From Winogradskyella sp. (GTDB lineage Bacteria > Bacteroidota > Bacteroidia > Flavobacteriales > Flavobacteriaceae), in NCBI RefSeq assembly GCF_028289625.1, contig NZ_JANQOM010000013.1, positions 160,650 through 224,649 on the forward strand: 64,000 nucleotides of DNA, written 5' to 3'. Position 1 is the first letter of the stretch, and the number at the start of each line of letters is the position of its first letter. The translations under genes were made by a program, and so were the position numbers. Shown piece by piece: positions 10,465 to 58,063 of this stretch. Under the pieces are notes generated by a model. That model did not search any database. It was not told the origin of the DNA and was given only the letters and a program-made list of their open reading frames with translations.

Positions 10465-11739
10465 TTAGAAATACTGGCCAATCCCAAACACAAAACCTTG
10501 GGTAGAATCTTGTGTAACACCCACTCCATAATCAATTCTAAAAATAGCATTGAAGATTTTTTTATGAATAAAACGCAATCCTAAACCTGGATATACCCTT
10601 AAGTTTTGGGTATCTGCAAAATCACCAAAGTCACCACCTGGATTTCGCCAACTACCTGCATCAATGAAGGCATTGCCTTGCAATGCAAACCAATCCTTTT
10701 CATAAAGGGTATAGCGATACTCCGTATTGAGAACTATGGCCGCAGTACCACGATCAATTAAATTTCCAACGCCTCTGATGTTTAGATTATTATCAACCGC
10801 AAAAGGAGCAAACGGTGTATCTTCATTCGATGCTACCCCAAATCGCAAACGATTGGCCCAATTACCTCGTTTACCAAAACGTTTAAAATACTGAAAATCA
10901 TTCCAGCCAATCAAAAAATCGGGTAATGCTTCATCATTCCTAGAGTGAACATACTGAAAATTAAAAATACTTCTAAAGCCTTCAACATACTGATAATCGT
11001 AATTGAGATTATTGTACTCATAAATGAGCTTATAGAGTAATTTATCTACCACTAATTCTTGTGGCACATTAGGATTAGTGGCACCAAATAAATACTCATA
11101 ATCCTCTGTAAAAAAGTTAACTCCTAATTCTACCCGATTCGTAAAATTAAATTGGTAAAGCCCGAGTAACTCAATCGATTCATTATTATAGCGATAGTCT
11201 GCCGTAGTATTATCGAAAAATACAGGTTCTTGTGTTGTAAGATTTTGATAATTTATGGCTAAACCCAGTTGTCTAGAAAACAAAAATGGCGCTCTAAGGT
11301 TTATGGCATAAGAATCGAATATATCTTTTTGATAAAAGCCGCCAAGCGTAATATTTTGCCCAAACAAATTGAATTCATGCAACCCTAGTCGGTAAGCAAA
11401 TTCATCGTCATTGGTTGTATAGACATTGGCCGACGGAATGATGGTAAAATTCTCTTCAATATTATAAAACACATTATACTCATTAGGTTCTTCAGCAGGA
11501 AACACCTGATAGTAGGCATGGGCAATTGAAGGTAACCGTTTTAATAATTGGATATCTTGTTCTATAACCGAAGAATCCAGAACAACACCAGGTTTTATAA
11601 ACGCTATTTTTTTTACAAAAGAGGATTTGAGTTTCTTGTTGCCTTGCACCTTTAAATCATCAACTACATTTTGTTGTCCGAAGGAGACAAGAGTCATAAG
11701 AACACAAAATGTAAAAAGTAAGAATTGTATTTGGCGCAT
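10465..11739 (-). CDS. Small Omp85-like outer membrane protein (copy 2 of a tandem pair)
   Basis: A 424-aa protein with a signal peptide ending in SFGQ, one POTRA-like domain (about 25-100, VQGNKKLKSSFVKKIAFIKPG), then a C-terminal beta-barrel ending in FGIGQYF, a typical aromatic outer-membrane terminus. It belongs to the BamA/TamA (Omp85) superfamily but has a single POTRA, unlike BamA with five. It starts 10 bp after the stop of a close paralogue (11750-13018), and the two share long matching stretches (NIRGVGN, DRGTA, LQGNAF, GLRFIHK). Its cargo is unknown; a role in outer-membrane insertion or secretion is inferred from family. Confidence 0.83.
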   Translation of the reverse strand: MRQIQFLLFTFCVLMTLVSFGQQNVVDDLKVQGNKKLKSSFVKKIAFIKPGVVLDSSVIEQDIQLLKRLPSIAHAYYQVFPAEEPNEYNVFYNIEENFTIIPSANVYTTNDDEFAYRLGLHEFNLFGQNITLGGFYQKDIFDSYAINLRAPFLFSRQLGLAINYQNLTTQEPVFFDNTTADYRYNNESIELLGLYQFNFTNRVELGVNFFTEDYEYLFGATNPNVPQELVVDKLLYKLIYEYNNLNYDYQYVEGFRSIFNFQYVHSRNDEALPDFLIGWNDFQYFKRFGKRGNWANRLRFGVASNEDTPFAPFAVDNNLNIRGVGNLIDRGTAAIVLNTEYRYTLYEKDWFALQGNAFIDAGSWRNPGGDFGDFADTQNLRVYPGLGLRFIHKKIFNAIFRIDYGVGVTQDSTQGFVFGIGQYF

Positions 11740-42157: not shown

Positions 42158-43171
42158 CTAAACCAACTGTTTTTTATACTGGCTTGGTGTTACTCCTGTT
42201 AACTTTTTAAAAGTGGTATTGAAGGAAGATTTTGAACTAAAACCAACTTCATTGGCGATGCCCAAAAGGGTGTAGTTTTTGTAGGTCTCGTTTTTTAAAC
42301 ACTCTATAAACTCTTCAACCCTATATTGATTCAATAAATCTTGAAATCCAATCTTCAAATGAACATTTAAAATCTCTGATAAATGTTGTCTAGGAATATT
42401 CATTTGACTTGCGACTTCATTTACTGTAATCTTATTGTTTTTAAAAAGTTTCTCTTCCTCCATCAAACGGAATAAATGAGCTTTATACCTCTCAATATTA
42501 TTTCCATTTAAACTAGACGTTTTATATTTAGAATCATTGGATTTTGGGAGTACATCTTTAGGTGTAATAATAAGTTTATAGAGCACATAGTAAAATAAGA
42601 AAACCGCCGCTAATATAGTTCCATAGCTATCCAAGAAGTAAGGTGACTCCGTTGAATTAGTTATTAAAAAAGCCAATTCATCTATGGTGAAAATTATAGT
42701 CAATGGAATAATAAATGCTAACAGCCATTTTTCCTTTTTCCTTGTTATGATATCATATATTGCATAGCCAAGCATGGCTAAAAAGACAAGCTCTGTAATT
42801 ACATGAGCAATTTTAAAAAGAAGTCCTTTTTCGATAGTATAGAAGCTGTCTAAGGTTTTGTAAACAACTGTTATAATATAGGGTATAAAAAACCATAAAT
42901 CCTTATTATTAAACTCGTCTTTACCAGATTTATAATAACGAACAAACAAAAAGAAGAACGTGATGATCAAAGTATCATGAAATAAGAACCAGTCAGTATT
43001 TTGCATGAATAAGTTATAGTCGTCATCACCAACCGCATAGAATACTACAGATATAATGCATCCTAATAATAACCAAAAGTTTACCTTTTTATATTCCTGT
43101 CTCCGCTGAATAAGGATAAACAATAAAAAGACACCCTGCAATAAGGCAATTATTTGAATAGTTCTTAACAT
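42158..43171 (-). CDS. Membrane-anchored AraC-family transcriptional regulator
   Basis: A 337-aa protein with an N-terminal membrane region of several hydrophobic segments (about residues 5-205), followed by a C-terminal AraC HTH domain with VNEVASQMNIPRQHLSEIL and IANEVGFSSKSSFNTTFKKLTGVTPSQYK. The AraC DNA-binding domain is standard; the membrane part presumably senses a membrane or extracytoplasmic cue. It lies directly upstream of the peroxidase operon on the same strand, with the direct repeats in between. TACATTTG ends exactly 5 nt before its ATG, so its mRNA may be leaderless. Confidence 0.87.
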   Translation of the reverse strand: MLRTIQIIALLQGVFLLFILIQRRQEYKKVNFWLLLGCIISVVFYAVGDDDYNLFMQNTDWFLFHDTLIITFFFLFVRYYKSGKDEFNNKDLWFFIPYIITVVYKTLDSFYTIEKGLLFKIAHVITELVFLAMLGYAIYDIITRKKEKWLLAFIIPLTIIFTIDELAFLITNSTESPYFLDSYGTILAAVFLFYYVLYKLIITPKDVLPKSNDSKYKTSSLNGNNIERYKAHLFRLMEEEKLFKNNKITVNEVASQMNIPRQHLSEILNVHLKIGFQDLLNQYRVEEFIECLKNETYKNYTLLGIANEVGFSSKSSFNTTFKKLTGVTPSQYKKQLV

Positions 43172-43261: not shown

Positions 43262-46200
43262 TTAAAACCCAAAACCTAACTGAAATGCTATACGCAAGTC
43301 ATCGCTACTACTAAATGCCGAAATATGAGCGGTCATCATCTGTGCCATATTAACAAAGAAGCCACCACCAACAGAGTTGTTCCACTTGTCTGAATTGTCA
43401 TTTTCTAACCAAACGCGTCCATAATCTACACCTCCAAAAACACCAATATGGATTGGTAATAGCCCAGTTTTTAAACGTCCAAAATTCCAACGAACATCTG
43501 TAGATTGCGAAAAAGCAGATTTACCCGTAAAACGTTGGAATCTGTAGCCCCTAAGTCCTGTTCTTGCCCCCAAGGTTGCCCCTTGGTAAAATTCAAAACC
43601 ATCACCCAAATTGACATGACCTCTCAAATTTGTTGCCAAAACCAATTGCCCACTTGGCACCAACCTATAATCAAAGCCCAATTCAGGTATGATATAACCA
43701 AAGCCTTTCGTAGTATCAACGTTGTTTCTGTATCCAAGATGTAATGATGTTTGGAATCCAAGTGTTGGAAATGCATCATCGTCTTTATTGACGTATTGAT
43801 ACTTGGCGTCTACGCCATAGAAATCCTGCATATCAAATACGGCATCATCTGCTGGTAAGCTTTCTATAAATCGTCCTGCTGTTCGCTCAACCTCATTACT
43901 TTCGTAAGTAATACCAAACTTTAGAACACCGCCCATTTTTCCACGCCAAATTAAGGATGGAGTAAATCTTAATGTTCTTATTTTTACCCTGTTAAAATCT
44001 CTATCCACATCTAAGCCATCATTTTCATCAGCTTCTGGGTTGGGTGTTTCATTACCAAAACCAAAAAAGTTAACCGCAAAGTTAGGGCTGTTAAAGTGTG
44101 CTTCCACACCAAAATTGACATTTGGTAAGATATTGGCAAATTCTCCATTATAATTCAAATCAAAACCACTTGTTGCGAAATAATAGGACGCAGTTACTTG
44201 ATGTTGTGACGTAAAAGGATTACGCTCAAATCCATAGTTGGTCCATACTGCATTAACACCAATTCTTAATCCATCGTCAGGATTGGCCCCTAAACTGGGT
44301 AATATTTGGGTGGTGTTATTTTTTAATTTTTTGTAATCATAAACGTTGGTCATGTAGTTGTCCGAAAACTTCTCGTGCCCCTTGTTTGTTACTACTGTGC
44401 TCTTTTTTGATTTATAGTCATAATACGTTACACGTTTTCCGTTTTTGATGTTGTAGGTGTCATTATTTTGCCCACCAACCAATCGCACTTTTATTAATTG
44501 GTTACCATCGCCAAAAACTTCAAGTACATCATCGTCATCCAAGGCATAAATCCAGATTTCCTTGGTGTCCTCGTGATTATAAGTTCGTTCATGGAAGATG
44601 TCTTTTTTCTCACCTCCTTTGATTCTATACGCCGTCACTTTCGTTTTACCATTTGGTAAGCGTTCTACATCAAACCAATCATCTTTATTAGTTCCTTTTA
44701 TGACAGCATATTTATTTATGAGTTCAAAATAACGATCAGAGATTTTCTGAAGGTTTGCACGTCTGGCTTTTAAGGTTCTTTTTATTTCCTCGATAGTTTC
44801 ATCCCTTATTTCTTCGGGTATATTTAGAAATACCTTTTCAATGATATCGTCAGTAACATTGTCTTGTATATGTTTTACTTCTGCATCCCAAACTGTTTTT
44901 TCGGATTGTGCAATGATTTCCATATCTAATGGATACGGTTCTACATTGACACCTTTTACATCTTCGAGGTCATCAGAGTATTTACGCAGTAAACGGGCCG
45001 TTGGAATCAACTTTACTGCGGCTCCTAATAAAAAGCCGTCAGACATTCTAGAAAATGCCTGATCGCGGTCTCTAGGCATCGGCCGATATACTTTTTTACC
45101 ATTCTCTTTAAACTCTATCCATCTCCACTGATCTTGATGCCTATCCCAATCTCCAATGAGCATATCGAATAATCTAGCTTTGATGTAGGCGGCCTCATCA
45201 ACAACGATGTCTTCATCCTTATGGATTTTTGCCATCATATCGTTGGTACTTATCAATTCGTCTTGATAGCCGAAACTAGCCTGGTCGCTATGACCCTCCG
45301 ACGTATGCTCTTCAATCATATAAAGCTCGTCACCAAAGTCGTCGTTATACTTACCTAAGGTTTCTTGCTTAGGTATGTAATAAAGTACAGGGTTGGTATG
45401 ATATACGCCAATAGCATCAGCTAAACCCCCAACGACAAATGGCGCATAAGGATGTGCGCCTGTGAACACATCTAAAATAAGGTCTTCGGTTTCTGTATCA
45501 TCAAACTGACCTTCGATGTATTGATCTTTAAAAACTACGGCCTGTAAATACTGCAAAGCCTGCTTTCTAAGGGCTCGCATTACATACTGCGCGCCATTTT
45601 TGTCTTCGAGACGTAATGATTTTGACTGATTTCCGCCTCCTTTTCTAACCACCTTTAAACCTCCAAACAAAGTATCTAGCATTACATTTGGTGCCTTTAC
45701 TGGAGTGCTGTAATACTTTCTAAAACGGTCTCCCCATAAAAATTTTCCAAAACCACTTATATCCGTTTCTTCTTCAGAGTATATGGATGCTGATGTATGC
45801 TCTGGCAGATTGGTTTTAAAATCTCTTTTGGTGTCTTCTTTGTATTCTGAAAATACTGTAGATTGAAATACGTCTTTCTCTTCTTCAGCTGAATAAAACG
45901 ATACATGAGATGAACCATCTTTATACACTATTAACTTGGCATAACCTACTGTACCATAACCAAACTTTCCATTTCCAGTATTTCTTACGGCCGAAATTTT
46001 CGAACCAGAGCCTGATACGATTTGGTGCAAGTTATCTTCTACAATGTATTGTAAATTATGATCATGCCCAGAGACAAACACTACTTTATCATTGGCTTGA
46101 GCCAGAGTTACCAGATGTCTCTTAAAGTCATTATATCTTGGATTTTGAAGATCTACATTGGCAACACCACTGGTTTTTCTAATTATATTTTTTAGTGTCC

Positions 46201-46939
46201 CTAATATGGGTAAAGGTTTCATATGACTGCCAAATGAGTATTGACCTCCATGTGAACCATTGGTATACATTGGATGGTGAATAGCAACTACTGTTGTTTT
46301 ACCTCTTGCTTTTTTAATGAGGCTGTCAAATTCATCTAAAAAATCGGCTCTAGTTTTAATATCACAATCGTCATTAATGGTGGGATGTTTGTCCCAATTG
46401 GTAATATACCAATGGGAATCAACAAGTATTAATTCTATGTCATCGGCAATATGTATCTTATCAATAGGACAACCATTTTCGGGTAAAAACGTATTCTTTC
46501 CCAAAGCCTCTTCTACAAGCTTCTCTTGCCTCTTTAAACTTCCTACACCAGAATACCAATCGTGATTACCAGGAATGAAAATAGTTTCACCTTTAAAGTC
46601 TTTTACCGCATCTATTTGTACTTGTAACCTGTGCTTAGCCAATTCATATTCGCTTGATGATTTTTTTGGCAGACCCTTTTCGTAGATATTATCGCCCAAA
46701 AAAATTGCTGTACTGTTTTCTGAAGCTTTTTTAAGTTCTTTACCAAATGCTAGTATAGCTTTATCTATTTGTCCAAGTTGAGAGTTTCCTGCATCACCGA
46801 TAAGATAAAATGTATGTTTAACTTCTTTCTGTGGTGGTGCTTGTTGTGCATGTTCTCCATCATATTGTGCTTTATAGGTTGCGCAAGAATTAATTAAAAA
46901 AACGGATACAATAAATGAGAGGGAGTGTTTAAACTTCAT
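43262..46939 (-). CDS. Lipoprotein fusion: calcineurin-like phosphoesterase, kinase-like domain and outer-membrane barrel
   Basis: I use the ATG at 46939 (1225 aa), which gives a lipoprotein signal (FLINSCATYK). Residue numbers below follow the 1241-aa ORF. Residues 56-320 are a metallophosphoesterase (GDAG, GDNIYEKG, GNHDWYSG, HHP, GHDHN). Residues about 440-650 look like a HipA/Fam20-type kinase fold: a Gly-rich GGGNQSKSLRLED with a following VMRALRK Lys, then LFDMLIGDWDRHQDQ, then PRDRDQAFSR, which mimic the catalytic loop and metal-binding Asp. Residues about 880-1241 form an Omp85-type barrel (TGLRGYRF, ending FQLGFGF). The N-terminal phosphoesterase and C-terminal barrel are confident; the kinase reading is my inference. 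Its stop is 90 bp from the AraC gene start. Confidence 0.8.
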   Translation of the reverse strand: MKFKHSLSFIVSVFLINSCATYKAQYDGEHAQQAPPQKEVKHTFYLIGDAGNSQLGQIDKAILAFGKELKKASENSTAIFLGDNIYEKGLPKKSSSEYELAKHRLQVQIDAVKDFKGETIFIPGNHDWYSGVGSLKRQEKLVEEALGKNTFLPENGCPIDKIHIADDIELILVDSHWYITNWDKHPTINDDCDIKTRADFLDEFDSLIKKARGKTTVVAIHHPMYTNGSHGGQYSFGSHMKPLPILGTLKNIIRKTSGVANVDLQNPRYNDFKRHLVTLAQANDKVVFVSGHDHNLQYIVEDNLHQIVSGSGSKISAVRNTGNGKFGYGTVGYAKLIVYKDGSSHVSFYSAEEEKDVFQSTVFSEYKEDTKRDFKTNLPEHTSASIYSEEETDISGFGKFLWGDRFRKYYSTPVKAPNVMLDTLFGGLKVVRKGGGNQSKSLRLEDKNGAQYVMRALRKQALQYLQAVVFKDQYIEGQFDDTETEDLILDVFTGAHPYAPFVVGGLADAIGVYHTNPVLYYIPKQETLGKYNDDFGDELYMIEEHTSEGHSDQASFGYQDELISTNDMMAKIHKDEDIVVDEAAYIKARLFDMLIGDWDRHQDQWRWIEFKENGKKVYRPMPRDRDQAFSRMSDGFLLGAAVKLIPTARLLRKYSDDLEDVKGVNVEPYPLDMEIIAQSEKTVWDAEVKHIQDNVTDDIIEKVFLNIPEEIRDETIEEIKRTLKARRANLQKISDRYFELINKYAVIKGTNKDDWFDVERLPNGKTKVTAYRIKGGEKKDIFHERTYNHEDTKEIWIYALDDDDVLEVFGDGNQLIKVRLVGGQNNDTYNIKNGKRVTYYDYKSKKSTVVTNKGHEKFSDNYMTNVYDYKKLKNNTTQILPSLGANPDDGLRIGVNAVWTNYGFERNPFTSQHQVTASYYFATSGFDLNYNGEFANILPNVNFGVEAHFNSPNFAVNFFGFGNETPNPEADENDGLDVDRDFNRVKIRTLRFTPSLIWRGKMGGVLKFGITYESNEVERTAGRFIESLPADDAVFDMQDFYGVDAKYQYVNKDDDAFPTLGFQTSLHLGYRNNVDTTKGFGYIIPELGFDYRLVPSGQLVLATNLRGHVNLGDGFEFYQGATLGARTGLRGYRFQRFTGKSAFSQSTDVRWNFGRLKTGLLPIHIGVFGGVDYGRVWLENDNSDKWNNSVGGGFFVNMAQMMTAHISAFSSSDDLRIAFQLGFGF

Positions 46940-46997
46940 TTGTCTGTTAGTTAAAGAATAAATAAAGTTACAGTTTTTTTCTAACACAAAAAATGTT

Positions 46998-48128
46998 CTA
47001 CCACCAAACGGTATGCTTCATATTTGGACTAGCAATATTAATGGGTTCACCAATCATTGGGGTCGTCAATGGCATTTGTAATTCTTTAGCTTTTTTTTGC
47101 ACACGTTCTATTGGATCAGTCCACGAATGCAGTGCTAACTTAAATGCTCCCCAATGAATAGGCATCATAGCTCTAGCTTGCACATCCACTCCTGCTTGTG
47201 CTGTCTCCTCTGGGAACATGTGTATGTCTGGCCACATCTTATTGTATTGACCACATTCCATCATAGCAAAATCAAAAGGCCCATACTTATCGCCAATTTG
47301 TTTAAAATGCGGCCCATAACCACTATCGCCACTAAAAAACAAACTTGTACTATCTGACTTAATTACCCAAGAACCCCATAAGGTACTCTGCCGATTACTA
47401 AACTTTCTACCTGAAAAATGCTGTGCAGGTGTACAAACTAACTGAATGCCCTTAAAAGTAGTTTCTTGCCACCAATCCATTTCTGATATTTTGTTACTAT
47501 CAATATCCCAAGATTCCAAATGTATTCCGACACCTAAGGGTACATAAAAGGCCTCAACTTTATGCCTTAACTTTTTAATAGATTCATAGTCCAAATGATC
47601 GTAATGGTCATGCGAGATGACGACTGCATCAATTTTTGGAAGTTTTTCAATTTCAATGGGTAATTCCTTACTAAAGCGCTTCCCACCAAGCAAAGGGTGA
47701 GGCGCTGGCACATCGCTAAGCATTGGGTCTATAAGAATATTTTTATCATCTATTTGTAAAAGAAATGACGAATGCCCAAACCAAATGAGACGTGCTCCTT
47801 CAGCATAGTTAGAGACTGCTGCAGAATCTACTTTTTGAACTTTTAAGTCGGTATTAGGTCTTCCTGCCTCAACTTTCTCAAAAAAGAATTTCCTAGATAT
47901 TTTTAGGATTTCTGAAAAGCTCGGATCTTTAGGTACATCTTTTTCATTTACAAAAACACCATCCTTAAACTGTCTTGAAGAACTGTAACGTTCTTGCCTC
48001 TGCTCAGAGATATCACCTCCAAAAGATGGATAAAAATTAACGAATAACATAAAAGCTATCACCAATAAAGCAATTATCCCTAAAATTGATACTAACATAC
48101 GTTTTAATAATTTCTTTATTCTTTTCAT
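46998..48128 (-). CDS. Membrane-anchored MBL-fold metallo-hydrolase (UlaG/NAPE-PLD-like)
   Basis: A 376-aa protein with one N-terminal membrane segment (about 10-31) and a metallo-beta-lactamase fold: HSSFLLQID, the metal-binding SHDHYDHLDY, a GDSGYGPHF strand, and MPIHWGAF near the C-terminus. The family includes NAPE-PLD-like and UlaG-like phosphodiesterases or lactonases. It is probably periplasmic-facing. It overlaps the NmrA-like gene by 4 bp at its start, placing it last in the SDR-AraC-NmrA-MBL operon. Confidence 0.83.
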   Translation of the reverse strand: MKRIKKLLKRMLVSILGIIALLVIAFMLFVNFYPSFGGDISEQRQERYSSSRQFKDGVFVNEKDVPKDPSFSEILKISRKFFFEKVEAGRPNTDLKVQKVDSAAVSNYAEGARLIWFGHSSFLLQIDDKNILIDPMLSDVPAPHPLLGGKRFSKELPIEIEKLPKIDAVVISHDHYDHLDYESIKKLRHKVEAFYVPLGVGIHLESWDIDSNKISEMDWWQETTFKGIQLVCTPAQHFSGRKFSNRQSTLWGSWVIKSDSTSLFFSGDSGYGPHFKQIGDKYGPFDFAMMECGQYNKMWPDIHMFPEETAQAGVDVQARAMMPIHWGAFKLALHSWTDPIERVQKKAKELQMPLTTPMIGEPINIASPNMKHTVWW

Positions 48129-48778
48129 TTAATTAGCTTTAGAATATCTTTATTCTCTAAAAATGATTTCTCGGCACCTGTCAACCCTACTTGAAACATT
48201 GCCTTTGCTAATTCTGTAGATTTAATAGATGCATTTTTTCCGAAAAGCTTAATAATAGGGTATAAGCTACGACTTATAGTATACATTAAATTGGGTTCTT
48301 TTCGTTTTTTAACTGGGAAAATATAGGCAGGTCGAAAACTATAGAATTCTAACCCAGAATTGGCCATAAAATTTTCTGCCATTCCTTTATAACGTGCAAA
48401 GGACGTACGACTCTTTTCTGTACAATCCGCTCCAGCTCCACTTAAAAAACACAACCTTGCTTTTGGGCTTTCCCTTTTTAGCATGTTAACAAAAGTCTTG
48501 GTGTAATCAACTGTAATTTCCTTAAACTTAACATCTGGAACAGCACCAGTATAAACTCCAATACAGAAATAAGCAATATCTATGTCCTTGAACTGGTCTT
48601 TGATATTTTCATAATTTAAAAAGTCTTTATGAATGACCTCAATTAACTTTTCATCTTTAATGTTTGTTTCTCTGCGTGTAATTGAAATTACCTTTTCTAT
48701 TTGATTATTTTTCAAACAATGCTGAAGCACAATACTTCCAACCATTCCTGTAGCACCAGTAATAATAACCTTTTTCAT
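48125..48778 (-). CDS. NmrA-like / atypical SDR NAD(P)-binding protein
   Basis: A 217-aa Rossmann protein with the nucleotide-binding GATGMVGS motif (7-14) and an atypical SDR/NmrA pattern (LCFLSGAGAD, YKGMAENF). No conventional SDR catalytic Tyr-Lys (YxxxK) is clear, so it may bind NAD(P) as a sensor or reductase. It lies 4 bp after the AraC gene and overlaps the MBL gene by 4 bp. Function unknown. Confidence 0.8.
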   Translation of the reverse strand: MKKVIITGATGMVGSIVLQHCLKNNQIEKVISITRRETNIKDEKLIEVIHKDFLNYENIKDQFKDIDIAYFCIGVYTGAVPDVKFKEITVDYTKTFVNMLKRESPKARLCFLSGAGADCTEKSRTSFARYKGMAENFMANSGLEFYSFRPAYIFPVKKRKEPNLMYTISRSLYPIIKLFGKNASIKSTELAKAMFQVGLTGAEKSFLENKDILKLIK

Positions 48779-48782
48779 AAAG

Positions 48783-49694
48783 CTAATTTTGAATTCGATA
48801 TTTCACCGGACTCATGCCTGTTTGCCTTTTAAAGAGTTTACTAAAGTGTTGTGGGTATTCAAAACCTAGGCCATAGGCAATCTCACTAATCGATACTGTA
48901 CTACCTAACAATTTATTCTTAGCGCTATTTACGATAAAGGCATAAATATGATCCTTGGCACTTTTGCCAGTTTCTTTCTTTAATAAATCGCTCAAATAAT
49001 TAGACGACATATTAAGTTGCTCACCACAATACTTTACGGAGGGCACACCTAATTCTGTAGGTTTTTCTGAGTTAAAATAATCTTTTAAGAAGTGTTCAAA
49101 TTCAGCAACATGGTCTTGATGCAAATTAGTTCTTACGTAAAACTGTCGGTCGTAAAAGCGATTGCAGTAATCTAAAATTAGTTCGATGGTAGAAATTATT
49201 AATTTTTGACTATGCTTATCAATATTCTGATTAATCTCTGTTACAATCTTTCTCACCAAATCAGTCAGAGTTGCTTTTTCATCTTCGGAAATGTGTAGGG
49301 CTTCATGAACTTCGTAATCAAAGAAATTATATTGGTTTATTGTTTTTCCTAATACCGATTTACGAATCAAATCTGGGTGAAAGGCCAACATCCAACCTTT
49401 GGCATCTGCCGAGATAGTTTTTTCTTCTACAGATAACACCTGATTAGGCTTAGAAAATACCATTGTCCCATCTGTAAAATCATAACTGTTGCGACCATAT
49501 CCCATTGACCCTTCTATACCGTCCTTTAATGAAATGGCAAACAATTCCGTATTGTATTTCACCCCTAGATACTGATTAAAATCTGGCATGTCTTTAGCCC
49601 AAACTACGTCCACCAATGGATGTTTAGGTGTAGGAAAACCAAAAGCTCTGCAGGCTTCGCCTATCGATTTTATTTGAATAATTTCGCTCATCAA
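48783..49694 (-). CDS. AraC-family transcriptional regulator
   Basis: A 303-aa soluble AraC regulator with an N-terminal cupin-like ligand domain (about 1-170) and a C-terminal two-HTH domain, including MSSNYLSDLLKKETGKSAKDH and ISEIAYGLGFEYPQHFSKLFKRQTGMSPVKYR. It is encoded directly after an SDR gene that carries 21-bp-spaced direct repeats upstream of its promoter, so this protein probably controls that operon and itself. The inducer is unknown. An ATG at the second codon is an equally possible start. Confidence 0.88.
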   Translation of the reverse strand: MMSEIIQIKSIGEACRAFGFPTPKHPLVDVVWAKDMPDFNQYLGVKYNTELFAISLKDGIEGSMGYGRNSYDFTDGTMVFSKPNQVLSVEEKTISADAKGWMLAFHPDLIRKSVLGKTINQYNFFDYEVHEALHISEDEKATLTDLVRKIVTEINQNIDKHSQKLIISTIELILDYCNRFYDRQFYVRTNLHQDHVAEFEHFLKDYFNSEKPTELGVPSVKYCGEQLNMSSNYLSDLLKKETGKSAKDHIYAFIVNSAKNKLLGSTVSISEIAYGLGFEYPQHFSKLFKRQTGMSPVKYRIQN

Positions 49695-49757: not shown

Positions 49758-50570
49758 TTAATTCAAACTAAAACGTTCTTTCGTCATTTGTAGATATTCG
49801 CTATCAGAAAGGGTGTTTCTGGCTTGCATCATTTGCTCGGCATCTTCACCTACTAGGTAACGTAACTTATCACCATGAATGGCTTCGTCTATAACTTCTG
49901 CGACTTTCGACGCTGGACTTGCATTTCCTACCATTTCTGGCATGGCGCTCATTAAAGCATTAACGACACCTTGGTACTCTGTAAGGCTTTCATCATTGTT
50001 AAAGTCTAACGAACGTCCGGCAAAATCCGTTGCAATAGCACCAGGCTCAACGATTTTCATTTTAATACCGATGGGTTCTAATTCATATTGTAAACTTTCA
50101 GTCATACCCTCTACGGCCCACTTTGTACCATGATACATGCTAAACATAGGCATTGCTATTCTGCCTCCTATTGAAGATATATTGACAATTGTCCCTGATT
50201 TTTGCTTACGCATAATTGGTAATACGGCTTGCGTGGTTGCTAGAAGCCCAAAAACGTTGACTTCAAATTGCCTTCTTATTCTGTCCATAGGAATAGCTTC
50301 AAATGGACCGCCTGCACCATAGCCAGCGTTGTTAACCAACACATCTATGGTTCCAAATTTATCAATAGTCGCATTTATAGCGCTATCAATAGAGGCATCA
50401 TCAGTAACATCTAAACGCGTTACTAATACATTATCTAATTGTGATAAATCAGACCCATCCTCTATATTTCTCATTGTCGCTACAACATTCCATCCTTTTT
50501 GCTGAAAATGTTCGGCAGTGGCTTTTCCAATTCCCGAACTTGCTCCTGTAATTAAAATTGTTTTGCTCAT
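49758..50570 (-). CDS. Short-chain dehydrogenase/reductase
   Basis: A 270-aa classical SDR: TGASSGIG (8-15) for cofactor, NNAG (about 85-88), catalytic Ser in NISSIGG and YHGTKWA (YxxxK). The substrate is unknown. It is the first gene of the SDR-AraC-NmrA-MBL operon. The TAATTTTG -7 box and the direct repeats lie upstream, so the neighbouring AraC protein likely controls it. Confidence 0.9.
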   Translation of the reverse strand: MSKTILITGASSGIGKATAEHFQQKGWNVVATMRNIEDGSDLSQLDNVLVTRLDVTDDASIDSAINATIDKFGTIDVLVNNAGYGAGGPFEAIPMDRIRRQFEVNVFGLLATTQAVLPIMRKQKSGTIVNISSIGGRIAMPMFSMYHGTKWAVEGMTESLQYELEPIGIKMKIVEPGAIATDFAGRSLDFNNDESLTEYQGVVNALMSAMPEMVGNASPASKVAEVIDEAIHGDKLRYLVGEDAEQMMQARNTLSDSEYLQMTKERFSLN

Positions 50571-50621
50571 TGTTTATATTTTATAGATTATTAATTTAAT
50601 GAATTTTTCTTTTGAACACTA

Positions 50622-50629
50622 CAAAATTA
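50622..50629 (-). promoter_or_regulatory. -7 box TAATTTTG of the SDR operon
   Basis: TAATTTTG on the minus strand matches TAnnTTTG and lies 51 nt upstream of the SDR ATG. The -33 region has only TTC, weak, consistent with an activator-dependent promoter, since direct repeats abut this position. Confidence 0.5.
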
Positions 50630-50650
50630 CTTCGGTCACTGTTTTTTGAA

Positions 50651-50686
50651 GTATACATTTCACAGAAGCTTGTATATATTTTACAG
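50651..50686. promoter_or_regulatory. Two 15-bp direct repeats, 21-bp period, candidate AraC operator of the SDR operon
   Basis: Repeats gtatacatttcacag (50651-50665) and gtatatattttacag (50672-50686) are identical at 13 of 15 positions and start 21 bp apart, two helical turns, as expected for an AraC dimer or a two-HTH protein. They lie directly upstream of the weak -33 element of the SDR promoter. The AraC gene is the second gene of that operon, giving a plausible autoregulatory circuit. Confidence 0.6.
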
Positions 50687-50820
50687 CATTCCAAAAATTA
50701 TATAAATACATAACGTCATTTATGGACTGGCTGGACATGAAACCATACAATTTAACCTACAGATAATATACATCATCATTAAAGCATTTAAATTTAGGGG
50801 CTATTTATTTGCGTACACCA

Positions 50821-52647
50821 ATGACAAAAAACAATATCAAAAAAATCGATTCAATCATCACCCAGCTTACTGCCATTTTGGAAGCCATGACGTACGAGAG
50901 AGTGCATTTTGAAAATAATTTGGGTGCAATCCATCCCGATTATCAAAAAAGCGCAAGGAATCTAGTACACTACCAGACCTTTAGAAAGTATGACTTAAGA
51001 AGTACACAGAAGAAGTTACGCAATCTAGGAATTACGCGTTTTGGTAATGCCGAAGCACATATAAAAGCTAGTTTACTAAAGGCTCTGAAACTACTTTATA
51101 GTTTAAAAAAAGAAGAACCAAATGCTTTGGGCAAATCAGGACTTTCCATGAAAAACGGAAAACGCTTACTCAATAAACACACTAAAGAACTACTCGGCTA
51201 TCGCTCTAAAGGAAGACGTGTGCGCATTATGGTCACTTTGCCAACTCAAGCTGCTTTTGATTATGAGATGGTATATAACATGGTTAAGGAAGGTATGAAT
51301 TGTGCCCGAATCAACTGTGCTCACGATGACACCTACATCTGGGAAAACATAATCAGAAATGTAAGAAAGGCTTCTAAGCAGCAGTCAAAAAAAGTGAAAA
51401 TCGCCATGGATCTTGCCGGACCTAAGATTAGAACTGGCGCCATTACTCCTGGCCCACAAGTACGTAAGTTTAGTCCCGAGCGTGATGATATTGGCAATAT
51501 TATACAACCTGCTAAAATAGTTTTAGTAGATGTTCTTAATGAGGATTCTGAAAATGATTGCTTGCCTATATCGAAACAAAGTCTAGATAGCTTAGAGGTT
51601 GGGGAACAATACAATTTTATAGATACTCGTAATAAATCCCGAAGCTTAAAGATTATTGAACTATTAAAGGATAGTGCTATTGCCTATTGTTACGAAACAT
51701 CTTATTTGGCAACGGGAATGGTTTTGACCACTTCTAATAATGAGGAAAAATCATTAATAGTTGGGGAATTACCCAATGTAGAACAGGCCTTAATTTTAAA
51801 GGAAAATGATAGTCTCATCATCACTAAAGAACCGCATTTGGGCGTTCCTTCTACCTATAATGAAGATGGAAATCTCGTTGAGCCAGCTCGGGTTTCTTGT
51901 CAACTCCCAAAACTATTTGACTATATAAAAAAGGACGATCGGGTTTTGTTTGACGACGGAAAAATTGAAGGTAGAATTACATCTGTAAATGTCGATTTGT
52001 TCGAGGTATGTATTACACGTGCCAAACCTCAAGGTTCTAAATTAAAGGCCGAAAAAGGTATGAATTTTCCTGACACGCAATTAGGAATACATGGATTGAC
52101 CGACAAGGATAAAATTGACCTTCAATTTGTAGCTCAACATGCAGATATTGTGAATTTTTCATTTGTCAATTCTCCTGAAGACGTCGAAGAATTACTCAAC
52201 GAACTAGAGCAGCTTAACGTTATCAATAAATTGAGTATTATTCTAAAAATTGAAACACGTACTGCCTTTCATAATTTGCCAAATATTTTATTGAGCGCTA
52301 TGAAAGTAAAACACGTAGGTGTGATGATTGCACGTGGGGATTTAGCGGTAGAAACTGGGTGGAATAGTATCGGAAAGATTCAGGAAGAAATTTTATCCAT
52401 TTGCGCAGCAGCACATATTCCTGTGGTTTGGGCGACCCAAGTACTTGAAAATTTTGCCAAAAAAGGGATTCCTTCCCGTTCGGAAATTACAGATGCCACC
52501 AACTCCATTAAGGCAGAAAGCGTCATGTTGAATAAAGGCCCTTATATCTTAGAAGTACTCAAATTGTTGAATGTGATTCTCAGCGATATGGAATCGCTTC
52601 ACGAAAAAAATGAAACCATGCTGCCTAAGCTTCAGAATTCCAACTAA
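50821..52647 (+). CDS. Atypical pyruvate kinase with an N-terminal extension
   Basis: I use the ATG at 50821 (608 aa); the TTG at 50809 is in a -7-like stretch. Residues about 1-125 are a helical extension. The barrel then shows pyruvate kinase motifs: MNCARINCAHDD (usually MNVARLNFSHG), MDLAGPKIRTG, IILKIETR with the catalytic Lys, MIARGDLAVE with the metal-binding Asp, and ATQVLENF plus PSRSEITDATNSI. The B-domain region is enlarged, and the usual C-terminal allosteric domain is missing, since the chain ends soon after the MLNKGPY segment. Catalysis may be retained; the classic TIGPKT motif is replaced by VTLPTQA. A standard pyruvate kinase is probably elsewhere in the genome. Confidence 0.8.
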   Translation: MTKNNIKKIDSIITQLTAILEAMTYERVHFENNLGAIHPDYQKSARNLVHYQTFRKYDLRSTQKKLRNLGITRFGNAEAHIKASLLKALKLLYSLKKEEPNALGKSGLSMKNGKRLLNKHTKELLGYRSKGRRVRIMVTLPTQAAFDYEMVYNMVKEGMNCARINCAHDDTYIWENIIRNVRKASKQQSKKVKIAMDLAGPKIRTGAITPGPQVRKFSPERDDIGNIIQPAKIVLVDVLNEDSENDCLPISKQSLDSLEVGEQYNFIDTRNKSRSLKIIELLKDSAIAYCYETSYLATGMVLTTSNNEEKSLIVGELPNVEQALILKENDSLIITKEPHLGVPSTYNEDGNLVEPARVSCQLPKLFDYIKKDDRVLFDDGKIEGRITSVNVDLFEVCITRAKPQGSKLKAEKGMNFPDTQLGIHGLTDKDKIDLQFVAQHADIVNFSFVNSPEDVEELLNELEQLNVINKLSIILKIETRTAFHNLPNILLSAMKVKHVGVMIARGDLAVETGWNSIGKIQEEILSICAAAHIPVVWATQVLENFAKKGIPSRSEITDATNSIKAESVMLNKGPYILEVLKLLNVILSDMESLHEKNETMLPKLQNSN

Positions 52648-52839: not shown

Positions 52840-53781
52840 TTATACTTTCACCCAAAGGCTATCGGTAAAATAATGTTTACAATCCAAAAAATTATTTACC
52901 GTTTTATAATTTGATGCTAATGCCAAATCATTGATTTCCTGTAAACTGTATTTTTTAGAAAGCTCTGTCCAGATCAATTCATTATAATCAAAATGGATGG
53001 AGGTAACTAACTTTTTTAATAGAACTTCTTGCTGTCTTAAACTAACTATATAACTTCTTACTTCTCCTGTTAGCGGACTGTAATGACAATAAAAATCGAA
53101 ATCGTCAATTTTAAAGTCAGCATCTAACTCTCTATTTATTCTTAACAGCAAATTTAAATTAAAGCGTTTTGTAATGCCATGTTTATCGTAATAGGCATTA
53201 TGAATGGTTATAGGATTCTTCTTTAAATCGAAGCCTACAAGTAGCTTATCACCTTGCTTCATGTTTTCATTAAAAAGCTTTAGTAGTTCTATGGCTTTAT
53301 CTTCTTGGTAGTTGCCTATATTACTCCCTAAAAACAAGAGCAGGCTCGGATAATCACTTTTTTTATTTTGCTTTAAGATTTTAAAATAATCACCGACTTT
53401 TGGTTTTATATGAATACTTGGTAAACGTTCTTTAAGTCGCTTTGTTAAAGCGTCTATAGCCTCTTTTGAGATATCTATGGGCACATAGTTGAAATCAACA
53501 TGGTTATTGGTAAGATACTCTAACAACTTAAATGTCTTAAAGCCGTCTCCTGCTCCAAGTTCTACAATATTGAATGGTTGGGAAAAATGTAAGGCTTCGA
53601 CAATTTGTTTGGACTGCATGGACAAGATCTCAAACTCTGCATCTGTAAGATAATACTCAGGCATATTCATAATCTCCTGAAAGATGCGACTTCCATTATC
53701 GTCATAAAAATATTTTGAGGATAAGTATTTATTCTCGGCCGATAAGCCTTGAAGTACATCTTGTGCAAATGTATCTATCAT
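52840..53781 (-). CDS. egtD: L-histidine N-alpha-methyltransferase EgtD
   Basis: A 313-aa SAM methyltransferase of the EgtD family (DUF2260-like): YFYDDNGSRIFQEIMNMPEYYLTDAE at the N-terminus, then the SAM-binding IVELGAGDGFKT. It trimethylates histidine to hercynine in ergothioneine synthesis. It is 1 bp downstream of egtB. EgtC and EgtE are not nearby. Confidence 0.9.
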   Translation of the reverse strand: MIDTFAQDVLQGLSAENKYLSSKYFYDDNGSRIFQEIMNMPEYYLTDAEFEILSMQSKQIVEALHFSQPFNIVELGAGDGFKTFKLLEYLTNNHVDFNYVPIDISKEAIDALTKRLKERLPSIHIKPKVGDYFKILKQNKKSDYPSLLLFLGSNIGNYQEDKAIELLKLFNENMKQGDKLLVGFDLKKNPITIHNAYYDKHGITKRFNLNLLLRINRELDADFKIDDFDFYCHYSPLTGEVRSYIVSLRQQEVLLKKLVTSIHFDYNELIWTELSKKYSLQEINDLALASNYKTVNNFLDCKHYFTDSLWVKV

Positions 53782-53782
53782 A

Positions 53783-54949
53783 CTATTTTGCGAGTCTTAT
53801 TCCTGAAAATTGCCATCTGTTCTCTGGCGCAAAAAAGTTTCTGTAAGTAGGTCTGCAATGCCCTTTAGGCGATGCCACAGAAGCACCTCGCATCACCATA
53901 GTATTCACCATAAATTTGCCATTATACTCGCCAATGGCACCTTCGGCCTTAGTATAATTAGGATAGGGCAGATAGGCACTATTAGTCCATTCCCAAAGTT
54001 GACCGTAATCCAAATATTGAGAAGCAATTTCCCATTCAAATTCTGTAGGTAAACGCATACCCTTCCATTGCGAATAAGCAAATGCTTCATAAAACGACAT
54101 GTGACTCACAGGAAGATGAGCATCAACTTCTTTAAAACCGCTTAGGGTATAATGCATCCATTTGTCATTCACTTTATGCCAATACATGGGTGCATTTATG
54201 CTATCACTCTTTACCCAATCCCAACCATCGGCATGCCATAAGTTGAAGTCCTCATAACCACCAGCTTCAATGAATTCTATAAATTCTGAATTGGTAACTA
54301 ATCTGTTTGAAATTTCAAAATCGTGAAGGTACACCTTGTGGTGGCCTAATTCATTATCCCAACAAAAGCAATTCTCTTTATGACCAATTTCATAAACGCT
54401 TTCATCTATTTTAACGAACTCTTGGTGTTGATTTTCGAGAGTGAGTTTTACTTCAAAATCCAAAGTAGGGAATGTAACTTGATGGCCAAGAATGTATTTA
54501 ATATCATAAATCAATAATTCTTGATGCTGCTGTTCGTGCTGCAAGCCAATTTCAATGATATTACTAATCTCATTATCAACTTCACCTTCAAGAAATTTAG
54601 CCATGTTGTTGTTAACATGAGCTCTGTAATCTATAACATCTTCAAACGTTGGTCTGGTCATTAATCCACGATTGGCTCTTAATACACGTTCGCCAACATT
54701 GTTGTAATAGCTATTAAAATAATAGGCAAAATCTTTATTAAAACGTTTGTAACTTGATTTATGTTTGGATAAAATAAATTCTTCAAAAAACCAAGTGGTA
54801 TGTGCCAAATGCCATTTAGGAGGTGACACAAAATCTACAGGTTGCACGGATACGTCCTCTGGTAGTAAGGATTGACAAATTTGTTCGGTACGATTTCTAA
54901 TATTCAGAAACCGTTCTCTTGTGATTGGGTTAGCTACGGCAATTTGCAC
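53783..54949 (-). CDS. egtB: Ergothioneine sulfoxide synthase EgtB
   Basis: A 388-aa EgtB: an N-terminal DinB_2-like domain with the iron-binding HxxxHxE motif (IGLQHEQQHQE) and an earlier HTTWFFEEF, then a C-terminal FGE-sulfatase domain (MRLPTEFEWEIAS, GASVASPKGHCRPTYRN). It joins hercynine to a thiol using oxygen. EgtB types differ in the thiol donor (gamma-glutamylcysteine or cysteine); the sequence does not let me decide. It lies between the hydrolase-OsmC and egtD genes in one transcript. Confidence 0.9.
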   Translation of the reverse strand: MQIAVANPITRERFLNIRNRTEQICQSLLPEDVSVQPVDFVSPPKWHLAHTTWFFEEFILSKHKSSYKRFNKDFAYYFNSYYNNVGERVLRANRGLMTRPTFEDVIDYRAHVNNNMAKFLEGEVDNEISNIIEIGLQHEQQHQELLIYDIKYILGHQVTFPTLDFEVKLTLENQHQEFVKIDESVYEIGHKENCFCWDNELGHHKVYLHDFEISNRLVTNSEFIEFIEAGGYEDFNLWHADGWDWVKSDSINAPMYWHKVNDKWMHYTLSGFKEVDAHLPVSHMSFYEAFAYSQWKGMRLPTEFEWEIASQYLDYGQLWEWTNSAYLPYPNYTKAEGAIGEYNGKFMVNTMVMRGASVASPKGHCRPTYRNFFAPENRWQFSGIRLAK

Positions 54950-54951
54950 TA

Positions 54952-56175
54952 CTATTCTTGTATTATTTGTGTTTCAAAAATAACCTCACTCTCTATTGTT
55001 CTATGTACTGGACATCGTGACGCTATTTCCTTTAGTTTTTCTTTTTGAGCAGCATCTAAGTTACCAACAAATTTTAGCTTTTTGCTAATATGATCTAAGT
55101 ATTTTGGCTTATCTACATCTATTTGTAAATCATCACTGTGCTTTCGGGAGTGTGAAATATATACAAACACCTCCCTTAAATCCCATTGTTTGCGTTCTGC
55201 ATACATCTTTAAGGTCATTACAGTACATGCGGCTAAGGCTGCATTGAGATATTCGTATGGCGAAGGTCCAAAATCACTGCCTCCTATGTCTATGGGTTCG
55301 TCGGCAATGAATGTATGATTCTTTGTTTGAATGGAGGTGGTAAAATTATCTTCAATAATATTTAAATGGCCAACCAACTGCTCACCTTCGGTACTCAGCA
55401 TTTTATTTTCACCTTTTGGAAAATAACGCTTTGCCCAAGTCCCAATAACTTCACCCACATATTGACTATCTTTTTCCTCTGTGAGTAAATGATCCGCATT
55501 ATCTAAAGTTATAAAGCTCTTTGGATGAAACGCCGTTTTGTACAATTGTTCTGCATTTTCAATACCAACGATTTTATCGAATGGCGAATGCATAATAAGC
55601 AATGGCTTTCTTAAGCTTTTTACTATTGCTAGTAGGTCCGTTTTATCAAACTCTGCGACAAAATCCCTGTTGATTTTAAAAGGTCGGCCACCTATATTTA
55701 CTTCAGCTTCACCCTTTTCCTTAATCTCATCTATGCTATGGGAAAATAAGTGTTTCACATGCGTTACTGTTGCAGGAGCACCAACTGTGGCCACCGCTTT
55801 TACGGCATCTAGTTTTGATGCTACTACAAGCACCGCAGCACCACCCAAGGAATGGCCTACTAACAGGCTCGGTGCCTCATAATGTTCCGCGATATAGGCA
55901 TGTACATCTAACAAATCATCGATGTTTGCAGAAAAGTGACTGTCTGCAAATTCGCCTTCACTTCGTCCCAATCCCGTAAAGTCGAATCGTACCACAGCAA
56001 AACCGTCTTGTGTTAATGATCTACTGACATGTCTTACTGCACTTAAGCTGCTGCTACATGTAAAACAATGGGCAAAAATCGCATAGTAGTTGGGTTTTTG
56101 ATTAGCAGGTAATTCGAGTTGGGCATTAAGAGTTAGCCCTTTTCGATTGGCTATTTTTAGTTTTTGAGATTTCAT
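54952..56175 (-). CDS. Bifunctional alpha/beta hydrolase / OsmC family protein
   Basis: A 407-aa fusion. Residues about 1-255 form an alpha/beta hydrolase with the nucleophile elbow GHSLGG (around 108), and residues about 270-407 an OsmC domain, including [15 protein letters not shown] and the conserved SRCPVHRT near the C-terminus (OsmC Cys residues). OsmC domains are often thiol-dependent peroxidases, so the pair fits an oxidative-stress role. It lies 2 bp upstream of egtB, supporting a redox link with ergothioneine. Confidence 0.85.
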
Positions 56176-56202
56176 GTTCTGCTTACTACCTTCTTTATTA
56201 AT

Positions 56203-56484
56203 CTAATTGTCAACTTGTACTCCACGCCAAAAAGCGACATAATTTTTAATGCCTTTGGCCAGTTCTGACGCTTCGGGATAATACCAAGCAGCATCGGTAT
56301 TCTCTTTACCATCAACTTCAATAGTGTAGTAGGATGCTGTGCCCTTCCATGGGCAAACCGAATGCGTTTCACTTGGTTTAAAAAACTCTTTTTTTATGCT
56401 TTCATGAGGGAAATAGTGGTTTCCCTCAACAACAACCGTATCATTACTTTCTGCAATGACTTTATTGTTCCAAATTGCCTTCAT
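56203..56484 (-). CDS. DUF427 domain protein
   Basis: A 93-aa protein matching DUF427: MKAIWNNKVIAES, VEGNHYFPHES and CPWKGTASYYTIEVDGK. The family is a small beta-fold of unknown function. It lies between the SelO gene and the hydrolase-OsmC gene, in line with a redox-associated operon. The minus ORF at 56172-56372 is another frame of this gene. Confidence 0.86.
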   Translation of the reverse strand: MKAIWNNKVIAESNDTVVVEGNHYFPHESIKKEFFKPSETHSVCPWKGTASYYTIEVDGKENTDAAWYYPEASELAKGIKNYVAFWRGVQVDN

Positions 56485-56500
56485 ATATAATATTTTAATG

Positions 56501-58063
56501 TTAAGAACTACAAGATAACATTGAGCAACCTACTTTATACCTAGCCCATTCTGGTCGCTTTGCAAACCACTTTTGGTTCTCGGGTTGCTCATCGTAAGGC
56601 TTCTTGAGTAAATTGAACAATTCGTCAATTAAATTATAATCACCTTTATCTGCTTCGTCAATTGCCAATTGTGCCATATAATTTCTGAGCACATATTTTG
56701 GGTTGACCAAATTCATATGAGCTTTTCGTTCTTGGTCTGTTAGTTGTTCTTTTTGTAATCTTTGGTCGTAAGATTTGAACCAAACTTTCCATTGTTCTGC
56801 TATAGCATCAGAAATCTTGGTTGGGTTATAAAATGCCTGTTCTACCATTTTTAGTCCTGCTTCCTCATTACCTTTCTTATAATGGGACAATAACCTAAAA
56901 AATATAGTCATGTCTGTTTCTGAAAGCAACAAGCAATCCTCTAAGTCAGTGATTAGATGGATATCATTGTTATCTGCAATCCTAAGCCCTAACTTAGACC
57001 TCATCATCTGTAATGACTTTGATTCAAAATCAGTTTGATATTGCTTCAAGACAGTTTCAAAAGGTTCCGCCTCCTCAACCAATGGATAAAGCGCATTGGC
57101 GAGTTGCAACAAATTCCAAAGTCCTATATTAGGCTGATTACCATAACGATAACGCTTGTTTTGTCTATCGGTTGTATTTGGTGTCCAGCCGAAATCGAAT
57201 CCTTCGAGCCAACCGTAAGGTCCATAGTCAATAGTCAATCCTAAAATGGACATGTTATCGGTATTCATTACGCCATGTACAAAGCCTACGCGCTGCCAGT
57301 GAATAATCATCTCTAAGGTTCTACGAGCAACTTCTTGAAAAAGCTTTACATAAGTGTCTTTTGAAGGCTCACCCAATTCTGGGTAAAAATACTTTAAGGT
57401 ATAATCCGTAAGTAGCTTAAGGTTCTTATAATCCTGCCTTGCCGCAAATAACTCAAAGTTTCCAAAACGAATAAATGTCGGTGAAACACGGCAAACAATA
57501 GCACCTTTCTCATAAGCGGCATTACCATCATAGAGCATATCTCTTAAAACCTCATCGCCTGAGGTCATTAAACTTAGAGCTCTTGTTGTTGGAACGTTTA
57601 AATGAAACATAGCTTCGCTACATAGGTACTCTCGAACAGAAGATCTTAAAACTGCCAAACCGTCCCCTTGCCTAGAATATGGTGTTTCGCCTGCGCCTTT
57701 TAACTGTAATGCCCAACGTTTTTGGTTATGCTCAATTTCAAACAGGTTTATGGCTCTACCATCTCCTAATTGCCCTGCCCAATTTCCGAATTGGTGACCA
57801 GCATAAGCCATAGCATAAGGATTTGTATGAGGATAAATTTTTGTTCCTGAAAAAACCTCCAAAAAGTCTTGCGAATCGATGTCTTTTTTATCTAAACCAA
57901 GCACCTTGGTCATTTCTGAAGACACATGTATCAATTTTGGATTTGATGGGATTTTTGGAGCCACAAAGGAATACATGGCCTCAAAAACTTTTCGTCTTGA
58001 GTTATCAGTATTTGGGTCTGAGGCTAGTTGGCTATTAAATGTATCACTAATATTTAGTTTCAT
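56501..58063 (-). CDS. selO: SelO protein adenylyltransferase (YdiU family)
   Basis: A 520-aa SelO pseudokinase. It has the HTNPYAMAYAGHQFGNWAGQLGDG segment, the nucleotide loop GAGETPYSRQGDG, and the HGVMNTDNMSILG active-site region with the metal-binding Asn/Asp. SelO transfers AMP to proteins and responds to oxidative stress. The C-terminus ends CSMLSCSS with Cys where eukaryotic forms have selenocysteine. It leads the SelO-DUF427-hydrolase/OsmC-EgtB-EgtD run. Confidence 0.92.
   Translation of the reverse strand: MKLNISDTFNSQLASDPNTDNSRRKVFEAMYSFVAPKIPSNPKLIHVSSEMTKVLGLDKKDIDSQDFLEVFSGTKIYPHTNPYAMAYAGHQFGNWAGQLGDGRAINLFEIEHNQKRWALQLKGAGETPYSRQGDGLAVLRSSVREYLCSEAMFHLNVPTTRALSLMTSGDEVLRDMLYDGNAAYEKGAIVCRVSPTFIRFGNFELFAARQDYKNLKLLTDYTLKYFYPELGEPSKDTYVKLFQEVARRTLEMIIHWQRVGFVHGVMNTDNMSILGLTIDYGPYGWLEGFDFGWTPNTTDRQNKRYRYGNQPNIGLWNLLQLANALYPLVEEAEPFETVLKQYQTDFESKSLQMMRSKLGLRIADNNDIHLITDLEDCLLLSETDMTIFFRLLSHYKKGNEEAGLKMVEQAFYNPTKISDAIAEQWKVWFKSYDQRLQKEQLTDQERKAHMNLVNPKYVLRNYMAQLAIDEADKGDYNLIDELFNLLKKPYDEQPENQKWFAKRPEWARYKVGCSMLSCSS

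Follow-up and report, generated by a model that had tools for sequence, protein, structure and literature searches.

Direct repeats ahead of a Winogradskyella SDR-AraC operon: very probably an operator bound by the operon's own AraC-type protein

The DNA analysed here, a stretch of 64,000 nucleotides from Winogradskyella sp. (hereafter "the window"), carries on its minus strand a short-chain dehydrogenase/reductase (SDR) gene followed, 63 bp further on and on the same strand, by a gene for an AraC-type regulator and then by genes for an NmrA-like protein and a metallo-beta-lactamase-fold hydrolase (MBL). A metallophosphoesterase gene behind them is possibly the last gene of the operon by read-through; it is missing behind the same cassette in one related genome (G048, see below). 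Two direct repeats and a promoter box stand ahead of the SDR gene. The features are, in the order of transcription:

50672..50686, minus strand: promoter-distal operator half-site CTGTAAAATATATAC, at about -69 to -55
50666..50671, minus strand: spacer between the half-sites, 6 bp, AAGCTT
50651..50665, minus strand: promoter-proximal operator half-site CTGTGAAATGTATAC (repeat 2), at about -48 to -34, in the position of the -33 element
50630..50650, minus strand: gap between operator and box, 21 bp, fixed in length and unconserved in sequence (0.16 bits per column)
50622..50629, minus strand: -7 box TAATTTTG, which fits the TAnnTTTG of the Bacteroidota housekeeping sigma factor; its offset is conserved across loci
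49758..50570, minus strand: SDR, first gene of the operon
48783..49694, minus strand: AraC/XylS-family regulator (P0001), with an AraC/RhaR-like regulatory domain and two helix-turn-helix (HTH) motifs; the true start is probably the ATG at 49691
48125..48778, minus strand: NmrA-like/NAD(P)H-binding protein, separated from the AraC gene by 4 bp and overlapping the MBL gene by 4 bp
46998..48128, minus strand: MBL (Lactamase_B_2)
43262..46987, minus strand: metallophosphoesterase with an Omp85-like C-terminus, following the MBL gene after 10 bp

The regulator has both parts expected of the AraC/XylS family, a C-terminal domain with two HTH motifs (Pfam HTH_18, 1.8e-19; HTH_AraC, 5.9e-14), which resembles the DNA-binding domain structures of MarA, SoxS and AraC, and an N-terminal AraC-type regulatory/dimerisation domain. 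In the AlphaFold model of the protein (mean pLDDT 88) the latter matches the regulatory domain of RhaR (TM-score 0.74 by target length), which is consistent with a small-molecule inducer.

On the plus strand the repeats read GTATACATTTCACAG (50651-50665) and GTATATATTTTACAG (50672-50686); they are identical at 13 of 15 positions and start 21 bp apart. On the minus strand the layout becomes CTGTnAAATnTATAC-6 bp-CTGTnAAATnTATAC-21 bp-TAATTTTG, or, read exactly, CTGTAAAATATATAC-aagctt-CTGTGAAATGTATAC-(21 bp)-TAATTTTG, the last element being a Bacteroidota -7 box. Since the TAnnTTTG box of the flavobacterial housekeeping sigma factor occupies positions -12 to -5 (PMC9723704), transcription is predicted to start near 50617, and the operator would then extend from about -69 to -34. 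A TTG -33 element is absent from the SDR promoter. The preliminary description of this DNA had noted the 13/15 repeats with their 21-bp period, the position of the AraC gene as second in the operon and a weak -33 region abutted by the repeats; the first two points are borne out by the sequence, and the third is right in substance, as repeat 2 ends at about -34 of the predicted start and no TTG is found there. The arrangement is that of a class II operator, with head-to-tail direct repeats of about 21 bp period, a proximal repeat that abuts the -33 region and a fixed distance to the box.

A repeat in intergenic DNA of 25% GC might of course be due to chance, or be the relic of a duplication, and a 13/15 repeat at some spacing between 15 and 59 bp does turn up in about 10% of simulated regions. 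The requirement for the proper spacing makes it rare: among first-order sequences simulated to match the 238-bp upstream region with its 25% GC, 0.6% contain such a pair at 20-22 bp and 0.2% one at exactly 21 bp, and a scan of the whole window finds no other two 15-mers, 20-22 bp apart, that agree at 13 or more of their 15 positions. Furthermore, repeat sequence, spacing and offset of the -7 box are kept in dozens of loci (see below) despite diverged flanks. Together, conservation across loci and rarity in simulation rule out a chance repeat, and we give chance or a duplication relic a negligible probability. In the 3.65-Mb genome that contains the window, the tandem pattern with at most 3 mismatches occurs once; a genome-wide regulon search found no second full site, and a half-site combined with a -7 box gave only weak matches (2-3 mismatches), about as many as the reversed control.

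The site follows the regulator. Among 61 genomes of the genus, searched with at most 3 mismatches, tandem sites are present in exactly four, the window genome, G017, G057 and G048, and the last three are also the only further genomes with an AraC at least 80% identical to ours, which the sites adjoin; the other 57 genomes have none, and the reversed-pattern control gave none. The genes behind the site are SDR-AraC-NmrA-MBL in the window and in G048, SDR2-SDR-AraC in G017 and SDR2-AraC-MBL in G057, i.e. the site is constant while the genes of the operon are exchanged. G017 has, in addition, a site ahead of MBL and NmrA genes that have moved as a group and lie next to a paralogue of the AraC gene. 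Absence of the repeats where the AraC-SDR pair is conserved had been named in advance as the result that would refute the proposed AraC operator; the repeats were found before the cassette in all three relatives. At larger distance, in 400 genomes of the family, there are 9 sites in 8 genomes (reversed control, 0), and an AraC orthologue, never less than 57% identical, lies within a few kb of every one. The full pattern of operator and box was found in 2 of the 298 genomes sampled from the order (control, 0), and the one that is not the window genome has two copies, one before an SDR gene, the other before an a/b-hydrolase gene and an SRPBCC gene.

The site sits between two divergent genes, the SDR gene and, on the plus strand (50809-52647), a pyruvate kinase gene of PRK14725 type whose product (612 aa) is longer than the usual enzyme. 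One could thus imagine that another regulator, for instance of the kinase, binds the repeats and that their link with the AraC gene is one of neighbourhood only. We think this very improbable, because the site tracks the AraC subfamily over families and phyla and changes in sequence along with its second HTH (HTH2). The kinase itself is ruled out as the target by G048, which has a different flank without any pyruvate kinase gene and still has the site before SDR-AraC.

We then considered 79 named loci with AraC homologues of 52-90% identity. A scan of spacings that makes no use of the motif gave 37 direct-repeat pairs at 21 bp, in 32 loci (a minority of these pairs fall within coding sequence), and mostly 1-7 at other spacings. 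Sites picked by repeat sequence alone number 49, in 41 loci, and TAnnTTTG follows at an offset of 21 in 31 of them and of 22 in 2, and at no other offset within 60 bp; no TTG was found 18-23 bp ahead of the box at these sites. It is on them that the unbiased claim of a fixed offset rests, since the box is part of the iterated model, which accepted 98 sites in 76 of 87 loci. Over 38 non-redundant sites, a column holds on average 1.13 bits of information in each repeat, 1.12 in the box and 0.51 in the 6-bp spacer, against 0.16 in the 21-bp gap and 0.10 in the upstream flank. Close relatives may owe part of this conservation simply to common ancestry, but the unconserved flanks speak against this, and conserved repeats and box in unconserved DNA point to selection beyond mere descent. 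Some AraC homologues near 53-55% identity lack the standard motif; several of these have a weaker, diverged version at the same distances, and one (L151, near 55%) has no site, not even a diverged one. One and the same site, at an identical distance from the promoter, heads the gene clusters of this AraC throughout the phylum, and also those of a handful of marine bacteria of other descent that appear to have taken up the regulator.

Some labels among the loci call for comment. Two MAG contigs, L136 (labelled Thalassovita) and L174 (labelled Methanosarcinaceae), have Bacteroidota-like AraC genes and a Bacteroidota-type -7 box, the AraC of L174 being close to a Bacteroidetes sequence; they are probably mis-binned Bacteroidota DNA. 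L133 contains at 10533-10650 a short tandem array with units of about 21 bp (CATTTGTATAAAACT...) that is not related to the operator.

Operator and protein also change together. In a supported clade of 12 AraCs the usual half-site is missing and all 12 loci have instead CnGtAAAATCATTTA twice, 21 bp apart, the second copy being mostly followed 21 bp on by [TGC]AnnTTTG. The 5' half of this half-site is unaltered and the 3' half has changed from GTATAC to CATTTA. In the protein, the residues of the first HTH (HTH1, 234-241) are largely unchanged, as is the 5' box, and residue 286, part of the second recognition helix, is N in 11 members of the clade and S in the twelfth; K stands there in 66 of the 68 remaining Bacteroidota sequences and in 6 of 6 gammaproteobacterial ones. 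K286 aligns without gaps with residue 96 of MarA. In MarA the N-terminal HTH reads the A box and the key residue for the B box is reported as Arg90 (PMC8279559), which we infer to be residue 96 under a shifted numbering. A coupled change of HTH2 and operator is thus suggested, without amounting to statistical proof, as a single clade represents one evolutionary event. A paralogous SDR-AraC pair (about 40% identity) has the half-site CATAGATTTGGACAA, twice, and the box CAACTTTG, in the layout 15-6-15-21-box in 9 of 9 genomes; one copy is in the window genome itself (L052, G000:C54, about 25.0-27.0 kb), the others being L045, L047-L051, L053 and L054.

The genomic evidence makes it very probable that the repeats are bound by the AraC-type protein whose gene follows shortly behind them. 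The suggestion of AraC-type repeats in the preliminary description is supported by a site that tracks the AraC orthologues and alters with their second recognition helix; the likely autoregulation that it proposed gains support too, because the AraC gene belongs to the controlled operon in almost all loci. As a whole, we consider it highly probable that the repeats are the operator of the cassette AraC, acting by class II activation in an inducible and positively autoregulated operon. Two subunits would bind directly, head to tail, one on each 15-bp half-site, with HTH1 reading the 5' part (CTGTnAAA, the "A box") and HTH2 the 3' part (GTATAC, the "B box"), by analogy with XylS and MarA. As repeat 2 ends at about -34, the bound protein would stand in for the missing -33 element and contact RNA polymerase at the TAnnTTTG box. 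An inducer, perhaps a reactive carbonyl compound, sensed by the AraC/RhaR-like N-terminal domain, would then raise transcription of SDR-AraC-NmrA-MBL, and with it that of the AraC gene.

Repressors also act at operators that abut the core promoter, and the same protein might bind the repeats mainly to repress, its occupancy from -34 to -69 blocking RNA polymerase until the inducer frees it. We regard this as unlikely. These promoters have no -33 element; the distance from operator to box varies by no more than about 1 bp, as would be needed for activation by contact but not for occlusion; and XylS/AraC proteins of this layout usually work by class II activation (PMC5481539). Activation by the cassette AraC thus remains our preferred reading.

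Six gammaproteobacterial AraCs form one supported clade; they come from isolates of Marinibactrum halimedae, Photobacterium sp. and Endozoicomonas sp. and from MAGs assigned to Oceanospirillaceae, Marinagarivorans and Gynuella. Tandem half-sites are recognisable in 5 of the 6 loci (the weaker pair of Endozoicomonas was found by eye), and in all six repeat 2 is followed by a TATAAT-like hexamer (TATACT three times, TATAAT, TATATT and TATTCT) at a distance of 21 bp, or 22 in Photobacterium; TAnnTTT occurs at none of the six sites. The geometry is thus retained with a promoter element of host type. An AraC homologue was present in 2 of 369 genomes sampled from the gammaproteobacteria, both already known, and this rarity fits horizontal transfer, the direction of which is only inferred, since the tree is unrooted.

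The operons behind the sites contain SDR genes in 63 loci, NmrA-like genes in 24, MBL-fold genes in 23, a/b-hydrolases in 10, HchA/Hsp31-like genes in 6, SRPBCC genes in 5, other DJ-1 proteins in 3 and a YqhD-like iron alcohol dehydrogenase in 2. HchA is glyoxalase III, and YqhD is an aldehyde reductase activated by the AraC-family protein YqhC upon aldehyde stress (PMC5297802). Judged by this gene content, the operons may be guessed to protect against reactive carbonyls, though we think such a role rather less likely than not. The likeness to E. coli YqhC-yqhD lies in an AraC-family gene beside an oxidoreductase gene, and in the two operons with a YqhD-like protein and the several with an HchA- or DJ-1-like one; unlike yqhC, which is divergent from its target, the regulator gene here lies within an operon that consists, in Winogradskyella, of SDR, NmrA-like and MBL genes.

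The half-site geometry and the AraC-like regulatory domain recall E. coli AraC at araI1-I2, where head-to-tail half-sites about 21 bp apart end at the -35 region, although genes and half-site differ. The layout is close to that of XylS at Pm of the TOL plasmid, where two direct repeats of 15 bp, 6 bp apart, each contain an A box (5') and a B box (3') and overlap the RNA polymerase site (PMC5481539). Repeat length, boxes, spacer and family of regulator are the same here; the box sequences differ, the regulator gene is within the controlled operon and the promoter, which lacks a -33 element, has the -7 box of Bacteroidota. The hybrid two-component systems (HTCS) of Bacteroides also bind DNA through a domain of AraC type, and direct repeats spaced by about 21 bp have been predicted for them (PMC3878776), but they are membrane sensor kinases for polysaccharide use, whereas ours is soluble, of the one-component type, and belongs to an oxidoreductase operon. 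Given these XylS/AraC class II operators and HTCS repeats, the kind of operator is already known. Our literature search on autoregulated Bacteroidota AraC-SDR operons found nothing relevant, and the AraC subfamily, its operator and its regulon appear to be undescribed. This operator stands out by how widely it is conserved, by its constant distance from the -7 box, by the exchange of the promoter element in bacteria of another phylum and by a residue of its regulator that is a candidate for setting specificity.

One may go further and see here a phylum-wide AraC subfamily with a single ruler (15-6-15-21-box) and exchangeable genes for reactive-carbonyl detoxification, which entered gammaproteobacteria as a unit of operator and regulator, its -10 box turning to the TATAAT type at unchanged distances, and in which residue 286 of HTH2 sets the B-box specificity; we propose this combination tentatively, with somewhat less than even confidence. 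Few studies have dealt with the one-component activators of Bacteroidota, for which predicted operators are scarce too, and a fixed ruler from operator to box, which the CATAGATTTGGACAA paralogues follow as well, would allow operators and targets of many unannotated AraC proteins to be predicted from sequence. In the gammaproteobacterial copies nature has, as it were, swapped the promoter, combining the same activator geometry with a different -10 element, and the K286N clade with its altered B box is a candidate specificity switch. The cassette is compact and, if our reading is true, inducible, and could become an expression tool for marine flavobacteria.

Finally, two neighbours of the cassette deserve mention. 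A second AraC-type HTH protein (337 aa) is encoded farther downstream on the same strand (42158-43171, minus). On the other side, at 52840-58063 (minus), genes for an EgtD-like histidine methyltransferase, an EgtB-like FGE/DinB protein, an a/b-hydrolase-OsmC fusion, a DUF427 protein and SelO lie in series, an apparent redox/thiol group adjoining the cassette.
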